DNA from: an uncultured Paracoccaceae bacterium
GTDB lineage: Bacteria > Bacteroidota > Bacteroidia > Flavobacteriales > Flavobacteriaceae
Assembly: GCA_943788135.1 (NCBI GenBank)
Contig: CALSPC010000006.1
Location: 1 to 64,000 of the forward strand
DNA length: 64,000 nt
Direction of reading: 5' to 3'
Part shown: positions 1 to 7,245 of the stretch, piece by piece
How the letters are laid out: every line of letters starts with the position of its first letter
How positions within the stretch are numbered: the stretch's first letter is position 1
Notes under the pieces: generated by a model
Databases searched by the model: none
What the model saw: only the letters and a program-made list of their open reading frames with translations
Told to the model about the DNA's origin: nothing
Program-made: the position numbers and the translations under genes

Positions 1-443
1 GATAACATACTATTTAATCCAGCATCCCCACTACTCTCTTCTTCTGCCGATGCTACGATAACTAAATTATAATTTAAATTTTTCTGGGCATAAAAATGCG
101 TGAATGTTGCCATCAACGCCACTAGACATCCTCCAGCATCATTACTTCCCAATCCAAATAATTTACCATCTTCAACTTGAGCTTTAAACGGATCTTTTGT
201 GTACCCATTATTTGGTTTCACGGTATCGTGATGGGAATTTAAAAGTAGAGTTGGTTTGGAGGGGTCGAAATCGGCATTAGTTGCCCAAATATTATTTTGA
301 GACCGCTGAAACGGAATCTTATAACTCGTGAACCAGGCCTCAATTCGTGCAGCCGTTAAATGTTCTTCCGATGAAAAGGAAGGAATTTCAATTAAATCTT
401 TTAATAATTGAATGGCTGATGCTGTTAAATTTTCTAGGGTCAT
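1..443 (-). CDS. argE: M20-family peptidase/deacetylase, N-acyl-ornithine/citrulline deacetylase type (partial, runs off the left edge)
   Basis: Minus-strand reading MTLENLTASAIQLLKDLIEIPSFSSEEHLTAARIEAWF...LLLNSHHDTVKPNNGYTKDPF...; ATG at 443 overlaps the argB stop by 4 nt (ATGA); last gene in view of the arg operon. Confidence 0.85.
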   Translation of the reverse strand, partial: MTLENLTASAIQLLKDLIEIPSFSSEEHLTAARIEAWFTSYKIPFQRSQNNIWATNADFDPSKPTLLLNSHHDTVKPNNGYTKDPFKAQVEDGKLFGLGSNDAGGCLVALMATFTHFYAQKNLNYNLVIVASAEEESSGDAGLNSML

Positions 444-1234
444 TGCATGGTAAGTGTTGTGAAAATTGCTTTGGAATCAAGCAACATTTCTGGTTTACCG
501 ATACATACTTTAGAAACCTGATGGTCCAAAGCATGGAAACAGTTGTTTAATTTTGGTAACATCCCAGAAAAAATTAGTTGGGCCTCTAATAATTTTTTAT
601 AGGATGATTTTGTAATATTTTGAATGACAGAATCGTCGTCATTAACATCTTTTAAAACGCCTTTTTTCTCAAAGCAATAGTACAACTCCACATCAAATTG
701 AGCTGCAAATGCAATGGCTAATTCAGAAGCGATCGTATCTGCATTGGTGTTTAAGAGTTGCCCATTTGTGTCATGAGTAATGGCACAAAACACAGGAGAA
801 ATGCCATGTTCTAATAGCACTTCCAAAGTAGAGGTCTCTACATTTTTGACATCACCTACAAATCCATAATCTAGGGTTGAGACCGGGCGTTTTTCAGAAC
901 GGATAGTATTGGCATCAGCACCTGTAAACCCAAGGGCATTGCACTGTAAAGCTTGTAATTGTGCTATAATTGTTTTGTTGATTTTACCCGCATACACCAT
1001 CGTAATCAGCTCTAAAGTCGCCGCATCAGTAATGCGTCTGCCCTCTACCATCTTCACTTCCAAACCTGTTTTTTGGGCTAAAGCTGTAGCAGATTTTCCT
1101 CCGCCATGCACCAAAACTTTTGGCCCTTCAAGAGATGAAAACACCCTTAGAAACGCAGCCAGTGCCTTGGGATCATCAATAACGTTTCCACCTATTTTAA
1201 TGATTTTGAGTGTATTCTTTTTATCCATTTTCAA
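440..1234 (-). CDS. argB: N-acetyl(succinyl)glutamate kinase
   Basis: KIIKIGGNVIDD...VLVHGGGKSATALAQKTGL amino-acid kinase motifs; arg operon context. Confidence 0.93.
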   Translation of the reverse strand: MKMDKKNTLKIIKIGGNVIDDPKALAAFLRVFSSLEGPKVLVHGGGKSATALAQKTGLEVKMVEGRRITDAATLELITMVYAGKINKTIIAQLQALQCNALGFTGADANTIRSEKRPVSTLDYGFVGDVKNVETSTLEVLLEHGISPVFCAITHDTNGQLLNTNADTIASELAIAFAAQFDVELYYCFEKKGVLKDVNDDDSVIQNITKSSYKKLLEAQLIFSGMLPKLNNCFHALDHQVSKVCIGKPEMLLDSKAIFTTLTMQ

Positions 1235-2156
1235 GAATTTTTTTCAACACCAATTGAGCTGCATAAGTTCTATTATTAGACTGTGCAATCACCACGGATT
1301 GATCACTATCCAATACCGCATCTTCGACCACCACGTTCCGTCGCACAGGCAAACAGTGCATAAACTTGGCAGAACCCAATTTTTCTTTGGTCATCATCCA
1401 ATTGGGATCTTGAGAGGTAATTGTTCCATACGCTTTATAGTTGCTCCAATTTTTGACATACACAAAATCAGCAGCTTTAAGCGCGTCTTCTTGATTATAA
1501 TTTACTGGGGTGTCTTTTACAATGTCTTCAGCTAACTCATAACCTTCGGGATGGGTAATACTAAAATCAACATCAATAGACTGCATCATTTCTATGAATG
1601 AATTGGCTACCGCATGAGGTAACACTTTAGGATGTGGCGCCCAAGAAAGTACAACTTTAGGGGTTTTCTTTGTTTTTAATTCTTCTATTGTAATGGCGTC
1701 AGCTAAAGCTTGAAGGGGATGCCCAGTAGCGCTTTCCATATTCACGATCGGGACTGTGGCATAAGTCTGAAAACTATTGATAATCCATTCCGAAAGATCT
1801 TTGGCCTTATCTTTAAGAGAAGGAAAAGCACGAACCGCTAAAATATCTGCATATTGCGAAATCACTTGGGCTGCTTCTTTGACATGTTCAGATTTATCTA
1901 GGTTCATAACTACTCCAGATTCAAACTCTAATTGCCAAGCATCTGTGACATTCAATACAATGACATCCATTCCTAAATTTTTGGCGGCCTTTTCGGTACT
2001 TAAACGGGTGCGAAGACTGGCATTAAAAAACAACATGACCAACGTTTTTTGTGCTCCTAAGTGTTTATGTTTATAGGGGTCCGATTTTAGAGCAATTGCT
2101 TCCTGTACTGCTAAAGTAATAGAAGGAAGGTCGTTTATTTTTGTGTACTGGTTCAT
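1221..2156 (-). CDS. argF: N-acetyl/N-succinyl-ornithine carbamoyltransferase
   Basis: LFFNASLRTRLSTEKAAKNLG and MHCLPVRRNVVVEDAVLDS transcarbamylase motifs; Bacteroidota-type variant. Confidence 0.9.
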   Translation of the reverse strand: MNQYTKINDLPSITLAVQEAIALKSDPYKHKHLGAQKTLVMLFFNASLRTRLSTEKAAKNLGMDVIVLNVTDAWQLEFESGVVMNLDKSEHVKEAAQVISQYADILAVRAFPSLKDKAKDLSEWIINSFQTYATVPIVNMESATGHPLQALADAITIEELKTKKTPKVVLSWAPHPKVLPHAVANSFIEMMQSIDVDFSITHPEGYELAEDIVKDTPVNYNQEDALKAADFVYVKNWSNYKAYGTITSQDPNWMMTKEKLGSAKFMHCLPVRRNVVVEDAVLDSDQSVVIAQSNNRTYAAQLVLKKILENG

Positions 2157-3277
2157 AATTCTTGTGCTAAAGCATTAAAAAAGGTGTCGATATGTGTGGT
2201 TTGAATTGTTAGAGGCGGTAAAATTCGAATCAAGTTGGGGTTTTTAGAACTTCCTGTAAATAAAAAGTGATCAAAAAGTAACTTTTTTCTGAGAGCAGCC
2301 ACTGGAAAATCAAATTCTAATCCGAGCATCAAACCGCGGCCTTTAAGCTGTTTGAGTTGTGGAATTGCTTTCGCTTTCTTCATAAAATAAGCTGACATAT
2401 CTTTCGCATTTTGCAGTAAATTCTCAGCGTCTAAAACATCCAAAACTGCTAGAGTCGCCGTGCTTGCCAAATGATTGCCTCCAAACGTAGTTCCTAATAA
2501 TCCGTAAGACGCCTTTATTGAGGGATGGATCAAAATACCTCCAACAGGAAATCCATTACCCATTCCCTTTGCCATTGAAATGATATGCGGTGTTAACCCA
2601 TGTTTTTGAAACGCAAAAAAATCACCCGTACGCCCAAAACCAGATTGCACCTCATCGGCAATTAAAGCCGTATTGTAGTTATGACAGAGGGCTTCAAGGC
2701 CTTTATAAAATGCTGTGGTACTTTCATCTAGACCACCAACCCCTTGTATACACTCAATAATTATGGCGCAAATAGGTTCAGATTTTAAGATATTTTCCAC
2801 TAACTCCAAGTCACCAAGTGGTAAAAACCGCACTTGTTGTTGCGCGTTTAAAGGGGCTACAATTTTTGGGTTATCGGTCGCTGCAACACAGGCTGACGTT
2901 CGTCCATGAAAGGAGTTATCAAACGCAATAACAGTAGCTTTGTTGGTATGAAAAGAGGCCAATTTCAAGGCATTTTCATTGGCTTCAGCTCCAGAACTAC
3001 ACATAAACAAGGCATAATCTTTACATCCAGATTGTTGTTCTAATTGCGTAGCTAATTGGGTTTGAATTGGATTTTGTACGGCATTACTGTAAAACCCGAT
3101 ATTTTGTAGTTGATTGGTTAGTGCCTTGACATAAGCAGGATGGGAATGCCCAATTGAAATTACGGCATGTCCCCCATAAAGGTCTAAATACTCAGTGCCT
3201 TTATCGTCATACACAAAAACATCTTTTGCTTTTACGGGAGTGACATCAAAAAGTGGATATACATCAAATAAACTCAT
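2153..3277 (-). CDS. argD: Acetylornithine aminotransferase family (class III PLP aminotransferase)
   Basis: SSGAEANENALKLA..., ALIADEVQSGFGRTG, MAKGMGNGFPVGG motifs; operon context. Confidence 0.92.
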   Translation of the reverse strand: MSLFDVYPLFDVTPVKAKDVFVYDDKGTEYLDLYGGHAVISIGHSHPAYVKALTNQLQNIGFYSNAVQNPIQTQLATQLEQQSGCKDYALFMCSSGAEANENALKLASFHTNKATVIAFDNSFHGRTSACVAATDNPKIVAPLNAQQQVRFLPLGDLELVENILKSEPICAIIIECIQGVGGLDESTTAFYKGLEALCHNYNTALIADEVQSGFGRTGDFFAFQKHGLTPHIISMAKGMGNGFPVGGILIHPSIKASYGLLGTTFGGNHLASTATLAVLDVLDAENLLQNAKDMSAYFMKKAKAIPQLKQLKGRGLMLGLEFDFPVAALRKKLLFDHFLFTGSSKNPNLIRILPPLTIQTTHIDTFFNALAQEL

Positions 3278-3279
3278 GT

Positions 3280-4074
3280 TTATTGGGTTTTAATACTATT
3301 AATTTTATCAAATGAGGCTACCATCCCTTGTATCAGTGATGAACTTAACCCTTTGTGTTCCATTTCATTGAGACCTTCAATGGTACAGCCATTTGGTGTG
3401 GTGACTCTGTCAATTTCTTGTTCTGGGTGATTTCCAGAAGTGATCAATAGATTTGCAGCTCCTTCGCAAGTATACATGGCTAAGTTTTGAGCTTCCTCAG
3501 CATCAAAACCAAGTTGTATTGCCGCTTGTGTAGTGGCTCGAATCAAACGCATCCAAAAGGCCACGCCACTTGCACAAACTACAGTTGCCGCTTGCATTTG
3601 TTGTTCTGGAATTGAAATGGTAGTACCTAAACGGTTAAATATAGCTTCTGCTACAGCTAAGCGCTGACTGCCTTTATCATTACTACACAAACAAGTCATC
3701 GATTTTCCTACGGCTATAGCAGTATTTGGCATGGCGCGGATGATAAACTGATCTGCGCCTACTAGACTTTCAATTCTTGAAATTGAAAACCCAGTAATCG
3801 TAGAAATCAAAACGTGTTTTTCGGTTAGAAAAGGTTGAGCATCAATTAAGATTTTTTCTAAATGTGCAGGCTGAACTGCTAAAATAATAATATCCGATTT
3901 TTTAATGGCTTCAGTATTGTCGGCCGTTAGAAAGACATTTTTGTAGCCTTCAAAATCTGCTAAACCACGTACATTTCTTTTTGTAAGGTATAGTGTTGTA
4001 ATTGCATTTGTTGTAATAAGTCCTTTAGCAATTGAACTTCCTAAATTCCCTGTGCCGATGATTGCTATTTTCAT
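3280..4074 (-). CDS. proC: Pyrroline-5-carboxylate reductase (start moved to the internal ATG at 4074: MKIAIIGTGNLGSSIAKGL)
   Basis: N-terminal Rossmann GxGxxG, IRAMPNTAIAVGKSMTCL motif; the ORF-track start at 4134 would overlap argC. Confidence 0.9.
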   Translation of the reverse strand: MKIAIIGTGNLGSSIAKGLITTNAITTLYLTKRNVRGLADFEGYKNVFLTADNTEAIKKSDIIILAVQPAHLEKILIDAQPFLTEKHVLISTITGFSISRIESLVGADQFIIRAMPNTAIAVGKSMTCLCSNDKGSQRLAVAEAIFNRLGTTISIPEQQMQAATVVCASGVAFWMRLIRATTQAAIQLGFDAEEAQNLAMYTCEGAANLLITSGNHPEQEIDRVTTPNGCTIEGLNEMEHKGLSSSLIQGMVASFDKINSIKTQ

Positions 4075-4084
4075 GTGTATAGAT

Positions 4085-5062
4085 TTAAAAATAATTAGCT
4101 TTAAGTTGTAATCCCAAATGTTCTTCAAAACCATACATTAAATTCATATTATGCACAGCTTGACCAGAAGCCCCTTTGAGTAAATTGTCAATCGCACTAG
4201 TGATGAGTAGTTTCCCATCATGCACTTCTAATTGAAGTAAGCATTTATTTGTGTTTACGACTTGCTTTAAATGGATGCTATTTTCTGAAATGATGGTAAA
4301 TTCTGCATCCTTATAGTAGGTTTCAAAAAGAGATTTAGCATCCTCTAAAGTGCCGTTGTATTTGGTGTAGACTGTGGCAAAAATACCTCTCGAGAAATTT
4401 CCACGATTTGGAATAAAATGAATCGCACTCTTTAACCCCTCTTGAAGCGCATCTACAGATTGATGAATCTCACCCAAATGTTGATGGTTAAAAGCTTTGT
4501 AATGGGAAAAATTATCAACGCGCCAAGTAAAATGTGTAGTTGCCGACAATGCAGTCCCTGCTCCTGTTGCACCAGTTACAGCATTGACATGAATGGCATC
4601 TTCCACCAAAGCATTTGCGGCTAAAGGCAAAATTGCCAATTGGATCGCTGTTGCAAAACATCCCGGATTTGCAATGTATTGTGCCGATTGGATGGCAGTT
4701 TTGTTCAGTTCAGGCAACCCATATACAAAGTGTTTGTCTTGAAATAGGGCATCTTGAGTAAGTCTAAAATCATTTGATAAATCAATAATTTTTGTCGTGC
4801 TTGAAAAGGTGTTTTTCTCTAAAAATGCTTTTGAATTGCCATGACCTAGACACAAAAATAAAATATCCACATCTGTGTTGATGGTGTCTGTAAACACTTG
4901 AGCGGTTGAGCCTACTAAGTCTTGATGAATAGCACTTAATTTTTTACCAGCACTTGAGGTACTAAACACAAAATTAATTTCAACTTTAGAATGCACGAGT
5001 AATAATCGAATCAATTCTCCTGCAGTGTAGCCTGCGCCGCCTATAATTCCTGCTTGTATCAT
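4085..5062 (-). CDS. argC: N-acetyl-gamma-glutamyl-phosphate reductase
   Basis: GIIGGAGYTAGELIRLL..., YIANPGCFATAIQLAILPL catalytic Cys motif. Confidence 0.94.
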   Translation of the reverse strand: MIQAGIIGGAGYTAGELIRLLLVHSKVEINFVFSTSSAGKKLSAIHQDLVGSTAQVFTDTINTDVDILFLCLGHGNSKAFLEKNTFSSTTKIIDLSNDFRLTQDALFQDKHFVYGLPELNKTAIQSAQYIANPGCFATAIQLAILPLAANALVEDAIHVNAVTGATGAGTALSATTHFTWRVDNFSHYKAFNHQHLGEIHQSVDALQEGLKSAIHFIPNRGNFSRGIFATVYTKYNGTLEDAKSLFETYYKDAEFTIISENSIHLKQVVNTNKCLLQLEVHDGKLLITSAIDNLLKGASGQAVHNMNLMYGFEEHLGLQLKANYF

Positions 5063-6252
5063 AATTCTGAATTTACGAGTTGATGAATTCTATTTTGATT
5101 GCCATTAATTTTAATGAATCCTTTTGCTTCCTCAGCCGTCCAACCGCTGTTGACTTCACCATAACTTCCAAACTTGGCATTCATTAAATCATGAGGTGAT
5201 GTAATACCATTAATTAAAAAATGATAGGGTTTCAAGACAATTTCCACCGTTCCTGATACATTGTGTTGACTGCTCGCTAAGAAGGCTTCCATATCGCGCA
5301 TAACAGGATCTAAATACTGGCCTTCATGCAAATGCATACCATAAAAATTAGACAAATAATCCTTGTGTTGAAGTTGCCATTTGGTTAGCGTATGTTTCTC
5401 TAGTAAATGATGTGCCTTCACAATAATCAAGGCTGCTGCGGCTTCAAAACCAACACGACCTTTTATGCCAACAATAGTATCTCCGACATGAACATCCCGT
5501 CCTATTGCATACTTTGACGCAATTTGATCGAGCATTTGAATGTTTAGCTCTGGAGTACGCTCAATACCATCAAGCGCAGTCAACTCCCCTTTTGTAAATG
5601 AAAGTGTTATAGTTTGAGGTGTTTCTGATTCTAACTGAGATGGATAAGCAGATTCCGGAAGCGCTAGATTAGAAGTCAACGTTTCATCGCCCCCAACACT
5701 GGTGCCCCAAAGACCTTTATTGATTGAATATTTTGCTTTTTCCCAATCCAAATCAACCCCATTTAATTTCAAATAAGCGATTTCTTCTTGGCGGGTCAGT
5801 TTTTGATCTCTAATTGGTGTGATAATTTCGATTTCAGGAGCGAGGGTTTGAAAAATCATATCAAAACGAACTTGATCGTTTCCTGCACCTGTGCTGCCAT
5901 GGGCAATATATTGTGCATCTATAGATTTTGCATATTCAATAATTTCTATGGCTTGAACGATACGCTCAGCACTGACCGATAGTGGATAGGTATTATTCTT
6001 TAGTACATTTCCAAAAATAAGATATTTCACTACTTTTTGATAAAACGTACTAACTGCTTGAATATTTTTATAGGTTGAAACACCCATTTTATAAGCATTT
6101 TGTTCAATAGTTTGAATATCACTATCCGTAAATCCACCTGTATTCACACTCACGGCGTGAACGTCATAACCAGCTTTTGATAAGGACACTGCACAGTACG
6201 AGGTATCTAAACCACCACTATAGGCAATGACTAATTTTTTTGAGTTTTTCAT
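5059..6252 (-). CDS. argG: Argininosuccinate synthase
   Basis: KKLVIAYSGGLDTSYCAVSL PP-loop motif; GRVGFEAAAA. Confidence 0.95.
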   Translation of the reverse strand: MKNSKKLVIAYSGGLDTSYCAVSLSKAGYDVHAVSVNTGGFTDSDIQTIEQNAYKMGVSTYKNIQAVSTFYQKVVKYLIFGNVLKNNTYPLSVSAERIVQAIEIIEYAKSIDAQYIAHGSTGAGNDQVRFDMIFQTLAPEIEIITPIRDQKLTRQEEIAYLKLNGVDLDWEKAKYSINKGLWGTSVGGDETLTSNLALPESAYPSQLESETPQTITLSFTKGELTALDGIERTPELNIQMLDQIASKYAIGRDVHVGDTIVGIKGRVGFEAAAALIIVKAHHLLEKHTLTKWQLQHKDYLSNFYGMHLHEGQYLDPVMRDMEAFLASSQHNVSGTVEIVLKPYHFLINGITSPHDLMNAKFGSYGEVNSGWTAEEAKGFIKINGNQNRIHQLVNSEL

Positions 6253-6866
6253 TTTTTATGTTTTTTAAGGAACAAGCTTTGCTTGATACTTTTTAGTCTT
6301 AAGAATGTTTTGTCTTTCACTTTTCCTGAAACAGTTTCTGATTTAGAATTTGGATCATATAACATCCCCGTGCACAAACACATACTTTGAGAAGTGCGTT
6401 GTAAGACATCATAATTTTTACAGGTTTGACAGCCTTTCCAAAATGAAGGTTCATCAGTAAGCTCGGAAAAAGTGACGGGTTTATAGCCTAAATCAGTATT
6501 CAGTTTCATTACGGCAAGACCGGTAGTAATGCTAAATATTTTTGCAAGTGGATATTTTGCTCTTGAATGCTCAAAAACTACGTTTTTGATTTTTTTAGCT
6601 AAGCCTTGATTTCTAAAATCAGGATGTACTATAAGACCCGAATTGGCCACGAATTTATCATGACTCCAAGTTTCTATGTAGCAAAAACCCGCAAAAGTTG
6701 AGCCCTCTAAGGCAATGACCGCATTGTGCGTTTCCATTTTGGAAATTATATAGTCTACGGAACGTTTTGCAATTCCAGTGCCTCTAACTTGTGCAGCAGC
6801 TTCGATGGCTTCACAAATTGTTTGAGCGTGAATTGTATGTGATTTATCTGCAATAATGATAGTCAT
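6249..6866 (-). CDS. GNAT N-acetyltransferase, first structural gene of the arg operon (possible N-acylglutamate synthase role)
   Basis: GNAT core GLIVHPDFRNQGLAKKIKN; 4-nt overlap with argG. Confidence 0.8.
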   Translation of the reverse strand: MTIIIADKSHTIHAQTICEAIEAAAQVRGTGIAKRSVDYIISKMETHNAVIALEGSTFAGFCYIETWSHDKFVANSGLIVHPDFRNQGLAKKIKNVVFEHSRAKYPLAKIFSITTGLAVMKLNTDLGYKPVTFSELTDEPSFWKGCQTCKNYDVLQRTSQSMCLCTGMLYDPNSKSETVSGKVKDKTFLRLKSIKQSLFLKKHKK

Positions 6867-6879
6867 TATCTAAGATTTA

Positions 6880-6935
6880 AGTTAAAAAAAAATTGAAAAA
6901 AAATTGAAGGATGAACCGGACACACCTAAGTTCAG
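6880..6935 (-). terminator. Candidate attenuator terminator region (hairpin 6912-6934 then two long U-tracts)
   Basis: mRNA-sense TGAACTTAGGTGTGTCCGGTTCATCCTTCAATTTTTTTTCAATTTTTTTTT; TGAAC/GTTCA stem extended by GG/CC. U-tract is offset about 8 nt from the stem, so this is tentative. Confidence 0.4.
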
Positions 6936-6951
6936 AAACTAATAGAACACC

Positions 6952-7050
6952 CTAAGGGCGACGACGTGAGATGCGGGGACGAGTAAAACCAGGGCTATAA
7001 GGAGTAGCCATTGAGGTAAATAAGGTTTTTAAATTCTGTTGGTCCATCAT
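6952..7050 (-). CDS. Putative arginine-rich leader peptide of the arg operon (attenuation): MMDQQNLKTLFTSMATPYSPGFTRPRISRRRP
   Basis: ATG ATG ... CGT CCC CGC ATC TCA CGT CGT CGC CCT TAG read from the minus strand; 5 Arg in the last 10 residues; lies 85 nt upstream of the first arg operon gene and is followed by a hairpin and U-runs. Confidence 0.75.
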   Translation of the reverse strand: MMDQQNLKTLFTSMATPYSPGFTRPRISRRRP

Positions 7051-7245
7051 AATTCTTATCAACGATAAAAAAATCGTCCTATAAATATGGGGTAAATATA
7101 AAAACTATTTGAAGTGAAGCGTAATTTGACTTGAAAAAAAATATGATTTTTTCGAAATTCTAAAAAATCAACAGTAATCACTATCAATAATTAAAATATA
7201 AATAACATTCTTCTAAAAAAACTCAGATTAGATCGCAATAAATGA

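Follow-up and report, generated by a model that had tools for sequence, protein, structure and literature searches.

A candidate arginine-responsive leader-peptide attenuator upstream of the arginine operon in Flavobacteriaceae

Results

The arginine operon and its leader region

The window, by which we mean the whole stretch of 64,000 nucleotides that was analysed, carries an arginine operon on its minus strand with the gene order GNAT-argG-argC-proC-argD-argF'-argB (Table 1), in which argF' is similar to N-acetyl/succinylornithine carbamoyltransferases. The matches of argC, proC, and argB lay above the curated NCBIfam cut-offs, and those of argG, argD, and argF' were full-length and below cut-off. 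No NCBIfam equivalog was found above cut-off for the first gene, the GNAT acetyltransferase, which is a candidate to supply the missing N-acyl-glutamate-forming step. In genome G026 and other genomes of family f15 (0.6 Mb), which probably represent Blattabacterium, the GNAT match is part of an open frame about 600 codons long, which would point to a fusion with a neighbouring gene.

Upstream of GNAT, the short reading frame described in the initial annotation is present at positions 7050-6952, encodes MMDQQNLKTLFTSMATPYSPGFTRPRISRRRP, and ends in RRRP before its stop codon. Its five Arg codons (CGT CGC CGT CGT CGC) were also confirmed. The start that is kept in relatives is the second ATG, at 7047, giving the leader peptide MDQQNLKTLFTSMATPYSPGFTRPRISRRRP. 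Farther upstream lies the sequence TATATTTA, which fits TAnnTTTn and which we take, by its general consensus, to be a Bacteroidota-type -7 promoter box; the transcription start predicted from it would be expected at about 7089-7085, that is, upstream of the leader. In 48 loci, 4-9 nt separate the end of such a box from the first leader ATG; in the genus of the window, this distance is about 42-45 nt. The small hairpin that had been noted between box and leader is real, and its stem is maintained with altered loops in most close relatives; in L237 it is exchanged for a different perfect stem (AGATACT..AGTATCT), in L228 it is weakened, and in L231 it is broken.

Table 1. Features of the arginine operon and of its leader region in the window.
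Feature	Coordinates	Strand	Basis
argG, argC, proC, argD, argF', argB	440..6252	-	NCBIfam best matches
GNAT acetyltransferase, first gene of the operon	6249..6866	-	PF00583
P2 hairpin TGAAC-TTAGG-TGTGT-CC-GGTTCA	6912..6934	-	Covarying stem, p=2e-4; UNNGY loop
P1 hairpin CGCCC-TTA-GGGTG, over last Arg codon, Pro, and stop	6948..6960	-	Covariation
Leader peptide ORF, MDQQNLKTLFTSMATPYSPGFTRPRISRRRP and stop	6952..7047	-	Conservation in genus and family; a further in-frame ATG at 7050
Regulatory codons CGT CCC CGC ATC TCA CGT CGT CGC CCT (R P R I S R R R P)	6955..6981	-	CGY bias
P0 hairpin GGCTA..TAGCC, within the leader and immediately 5' of the Arg codons	6993..7009	-	Folding z, matched-pair test
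5' UTR hairpin ACGAT-N6-ATCGT	7062..7077	-	Stem preserved in most genus members, with differing loops
Predicted Bacteroidota-type -7 promoter box TATATTTA (TAnnTTTn)	7093..7100	-	Sequence; predicted

Conservation of the leader in the family and genus

A family set of 81 loci was assembled from the window and from 80 Flavobacteriaceae or near loci retrieved with the GNAT query. An Arg-rich frame is found at a fixed place before GNAT in 81/81 loci, and in every family locus it lies just 5' of the core GGTGWGTCC, which is located about 56-112 nt before GNAT. When the frames were anchored on hairpin P1, none of the 81 was interrupted within its last 14 codons, which on average include 4.2 Arg. Strict Arg-rich ORFs, defined by an ATG start and by 4 or more Arg among their last 16 residues, were detected in 52/81 upstream regions versus 0.65 in shuffles; when GTG and TTG starts were also accepted and 3 or more Arg sufficed, the count rose to 79/81 versus 8.3. 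Some family leaders have only GTG or TTG starts or no obvious ATG, and in a minority of loci the stop is shifted a few codons 3' of P1, yet remains before P2. CGY codons account for 331/340 (97%) of the leader Arg codons versus 214/464 (46%) in the comparison set, the 39 long ORFs of the window.

At the genus level, 15 loci from the genus and near relatives were aligned end to end, of which 12 had an exact P1 anchor. The ending RPRxxRRRP-stop is kept in these 12 rows, bar one Arg-to-Cys exchange. In their last 12 leader codons, 5, 2, and 9 columns are variable at codon positions 1, 2, and 3, respectively; codons drift synonymously, with a dN/dS of 0.42. The Arg codons outside P1 are kept with C/T drift, and outgroups retain leader Arg through CGA, AGG, or AGA in a different sequence. 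The comparison across Flavobacteriaceae that had been proposed as a check thus returned an Arg-rich leader at every locus and, within the genus, drift of the coding type. A role for proline, also considered in the initial annotation, is not borne out: the frame ending at P1 reads RP in 74 of the 81 loci, RT in 5, and RL in 2, and Arg persists.

In 20/81 loci (L005, L008, L011, L014, L020, L028, and 14 others), a second Arg-rich ORF, often ending in RRRR or NRRR, lies farther upstream, about 215-275 nt before GNAT; an example is MITSKNKTHIVYIAPPVRRRR. Many of these ORFs start a few nt 3' of a TAnnTTTn box, and often a U-rich stretch follows the ORF. They may constitute a possible tandem attenuator.

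RNA hairpins of the leader region

Three hairpins were delimited in the leader region, of which P0 and P1 were absent from the initial annotation, and P2 corresponds to the downstream hairpin described there, which exists and is conserved. P2 consists of a stem with a 5' bulge and of invariant GG/CC pairs around a UGWGU loop. In P1, compensatory changes to CGCAC..GTGCG occur in four rows of alignment A1. Paired cells amount to 93% for P1 and 96-97% for P2; in 64 sequences, P1 and P2 together reach 95.4% paired cells versus 60.2% for the best slid version. Their covariation score is 0.234 versus 0.123 after shuffling, a comparison that does not amount to a probability because the 64 sequences are related. 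The mean folding z of P0 is -1.37, compared with 0.04 for a control stretch, and the centres of its loops concentrate at 30-40 nt 5' of P1.

Matched and between-species duplex energies were compared in a matched-pair test comprising ten permutation tests on 67 dereplicated loci. The stems of both P0 and P2 gave p=2e-4. Pairing of P0 with the loop and 3' arm of P1 gave p=8e-4 in one of the ten tests. The evidence for this alternative helix as a switch is only suggestive, because a wider segment around the same parts gave p=0.15 and six other pairings were null in the 67 loci.

The distance between P1 and P2 is 11-13 nt in 71/79 loci, and the end of this spacer is U-rich and followed by G. This geometry resembles that of a hairpin-stabilised RNA polymerase pause. 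The stretch of RNA that joins P2 to the GNAT ATG lacks structure (mean z +0.56), and the matched-pair test detected no covarying pairing of this region with the upstream parts.

P2-like hairpins with UNNGY pentaloops follow 13/41 outgroup leaders versus 0.8 in shuffled sequences (maximum 4), and the next best loop class reaches 3; across the class, the closing pairs vary between CC/GG and GG/CC. The locus has no Rfam match at gathering score, with matches only at chance level at E up to 10. Five copies of the sequence AGGTGWGTCC are present in the genome of the window, and only the one at the arg locus lies in a leader setting.

Several other roles for P2 were considered and discarded. Against a generic attenuator part, by inspection the other four AGGTGWGTCC copies have no leader and apparently lie within coding sequence. 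Complementarity of its core to the 16S 3' end (AGGUGA) is not kept by the class-wide loops (CC-UACGY-GG). A T-box-like bulge binding tRNA-CCA finds neither a UGG motif nor an Rfam match, and pairing of the Arg codons with P2 (CGCC:GGUG) does not covary (p 0.27-0.98). The frame that would make P2 a coding stretch, MEIGES-like in some loci, is broken in others.

Distribution of ArgR and of the leader

To learn about the distribution of ArgR, genomes were searched with PF02863, and a Bacteroides control was positive. ArgR was found in 0/198 Flavobacteriales genomes, including the genome of the window, and in 10/197 Bacteroidia genomes. Seven of these ten hold a GNAT ortholog. In six of them, argR is located immediately 5' of it, and families f45 and f68 show this arrangement; the seventh, G297, has only a marginal ArgR match, which lies away from GNAT. 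Arg-rich leaders with an ATG start precede 40/57 GNAT operons of the class without adjacent argR, versus a shuffled mean of about 5, and 0/6 of those with argR directly upstream, a figure that is weak alone as it concerns six genomes. Families f5, f15, and f30 have neither ArgR nor a clear leader, so that loss of ArgR is not always paired with a leader.

A covariance model of P1 and P2, named R1, matched in 17/198 Flavobacteriales genomes, once in each and always just upstream of GNAT. Outside genus g2, which is probably Flavobacterium, all genomes of the family with GNAT had an R1 match but one; within the genus of the window, matches were found in 14/19 genomes, many of them incomplete. Genus g2 mostly lacks the Arg leader and P2. 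Its locus L121 keeps an RRRFRP-stop leader, and five others (L120, L122, L124, L128, and L132), without P1 or P2, have a different conserved short ORF at about -240 that ends in TSPEVRML before its stop and is possibly a leader with another signal.

The off-step of the proposed attenuation

No hairpin with an adjacent U-run was found between leader end and GNAT in 77/81 loci, and at most 3 T occur in the 8 nt after P2 in 53/79. P2 therefore does not hold up as the intrinsic terminator it had been proposed to be. The two U-runs reported after it are present about 10 and 20 nt downstream and are conserved in the genus only. Likewise, the proposed pairing of GTTC after the leader stop with the GAAC arm of P2 can be drawn in the sequence of the window, but most relatives lack the GTTC, which is not fully kept within the genus either, and a GTTC-GAAC antiterminator was accordingly rejected.

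Complete terminators do occur elsewhere. In the genome of the window, the his leader MKTNIVIHHHSLTGCQAR, located upstream of hisG (L220, contig C7 near 227 kb), is followed by the terminator GGACCCGTTTGAGCAATCAAGCGGGTCTTTTTTT, and an antiterminator is also present. In family f50, the arg leaders MKQVLLNYRSLRRRPYAAG, ending in RRRPYAAG-stop, have a complete antiterminator and terminator; L180, with the ending SLRRRPYAAG-stop, and L191 carry this canonical arg attenuator about 200 nt before GNAT, and its intrinsic terminator is strong. Judged by their sequences, the his leader and the f50 arg leaders look like textbook terminator/antiterminator attenuators, showing that the attenuation logic exists in the class for both amino acids. 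The arg system of Flavobacteriaceae would differ from both in its off-step.

Discussion

Our findings suggest that the leader upstream of GNAT is, as we consider likely, an arginine-responsive, ribosome-mediated leader-peptide attenuator. That it senses Arg codons is the part held with high confidence; control is rather probably exerted on transcription and not on translation, and the balance leans towards an off-step that is non-intrinsic in this family, carried out by Rho or by a P2-dependent factor. The initial view of an Arg-codon leader peptide before the arg operon is upheld by its conservation, coding-type drift, arg-specific location, and the lack of ArgR in the lineage. The leader very probably acts as a sensor by which arginine synthesis is switched on under arginine shortage, and the attenuator, very likely a functional one, is old and occurs widely in Bacteroidia.

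In the mechanism that we propose, the transcript would begin just 5' of the leader, which would be translated by ribosomes, and the position of the ribosome would set which RNA structure forms. When Arg-tRNA for CGU and CGC is scarce, ribosomes would stall at the C-terminal Arg codons; a ribosome on RRRP would mask the 5' arm of P1, so that neither P1 nor the helix of P0 with the 3' arm of P1 forms, and RNA polymerase would proceed into the arg genes. With ample arginine, ribosomes would reach the stop codon and then depart. P1 could then form 11-13 nt behind the U-rich/G site as a putative pause hairpin, P2 would form after it, and early termination would be favoured. As a tentative extension, transcription in Flavobacteriaceae and several other families might be ended by this class-old attenuator not through an intrinsic terminator but through the P1, 11-13 nt, P2 (UNNGY) arrangement being recognised by a new factor, the attenuator holding the place that ArgR has elsewhere.

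A specific form of the attenuator reading, possible though doubtful, is Rho-dependent termination similar to that of tnaC or speF, in which free leader RNA would load Rho, a stalled ribosome would shield it, and P1 and P2 would pause the polymerase. The absent intrinsic terminator, the C-rich Arg and Pro codons, and the pause geometry of P1 are consistent with it, as is the precedent of Arg codons combined with Rho in speF (PMC6386406), but Rho alone leaves the conservation of the P2 loop unexplained.

That conservation could be accounted for if P2 were itself the main switch, specifically recognised by a protein, by RNA polymerase, or by a small molecule, and the leader provided a second input. 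The invariant GG-UGWGU-CC, the class-wide enrichment of UNNGY loops despite swapped closing pairs, and the single occurrence of the core in such a setting in the genome agree with this proposal; nevertheless, it is unlikely, given that Rfam holds no match and the partner is only hypothetical.

Less probable still is the textbook attenuator favoured at the outset, with P2 or P1 as intrinsic terminator and an antiterminator formed on stalling. It draws on the U-rich stretches after P2 in the genus, on a scan that rates P1 as terminator-like, and on the use of this design by the f50 relatives and by the his operon of the same genome. Against it stand the scarcity of adjacent U-runs across the family, the poor conservation of GTTC-GAAC, and the lack of covariation in pairing of the linker with P2.

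Control of GNAT translation or mRNA stability instead of transcription appears similarly improbable. It has precedents in Staphylococcus aureus rbfL (PMC13009471) and in speF with RNase G (PMC6386406), but the unstructured RNA between P2 and the ATG and its lack of covarying pairing with upstream parts give no sign that the start site is occluded in a conserved manner.

Lastly, it is very improbable that the Arg-rich ORF merely reflects a conserved CG-rich RNA structure and is not a translated sensor: P1 overlaps the last codons, so part of the constraint is structural, but the Arg codons outside P1 are retained, outgroups encode Arg by other codons, the frame is open in 81/81 loci, and dN/dS is 0.42.

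The attenuator that we favour offers a candidate answer to how arginine synthesis is regulated in a large environmental group apparently without ArgR. It would extend amino-acid leader attenuation to arginine biosynthesis, for which we found no earlier description in the open-access literature, nor, for Bacteroidota, a description of such a leader attenuator in open-access full texts. The lineage combines a his attenuator of textbook form with an arg one that departs from it, which makes P2 directly testable as a novel kind of regulatory signal.

Comparison with known systems

Like hisL and trpL of Escherichia coli, the arg leader is a short ORF rich in codons for the product of its operon and is accompanied by several hairpins, one of which covers the regulatory codons and is likely a pause hairpin. 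Unlike them, it would sense arginine, and most members lack an intrinsic terminator. To our knowledge, the conserved UNNGY hairpin P2 and the fixed spacing between P1 and P2 are not part of his/trp-type attenuators. Control by ArgR has the same target operon but uses a DNA-binding protein, whose gene is missing from all the Flavobacteriales genomes searched.

Within the same family, a transcriptome study of Flavobacterium psychrophilum suggested leader-peptide attenuation upstream of amino-acid operons, and its main text names neither an arg leader nor a P1/P2 element (PMC9723704). The S. aureus leader peptide rbfL contains Arg codons and senses the supply of Arg-tRNA, but, unlike the arg leader proposed here, it blocks the ribosome-binding site of rbf, thus acting on translation, and represses under starvation (PMC13009471). 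In the Salmonella speF leader, consecutive Arg codons of orf34 sense arginine and Rho-dependent termination takes place without an intrinsic terminator. It differs from the arg leader in its target, ornithine decarboxylase, in its long 5' UTR, and in an unrelated peptide and RNA, with two Arg codons at positions 12-13 versus a C-terminal run, and both have in common consecutive Arg codons within a short ORF (PMC6386406).
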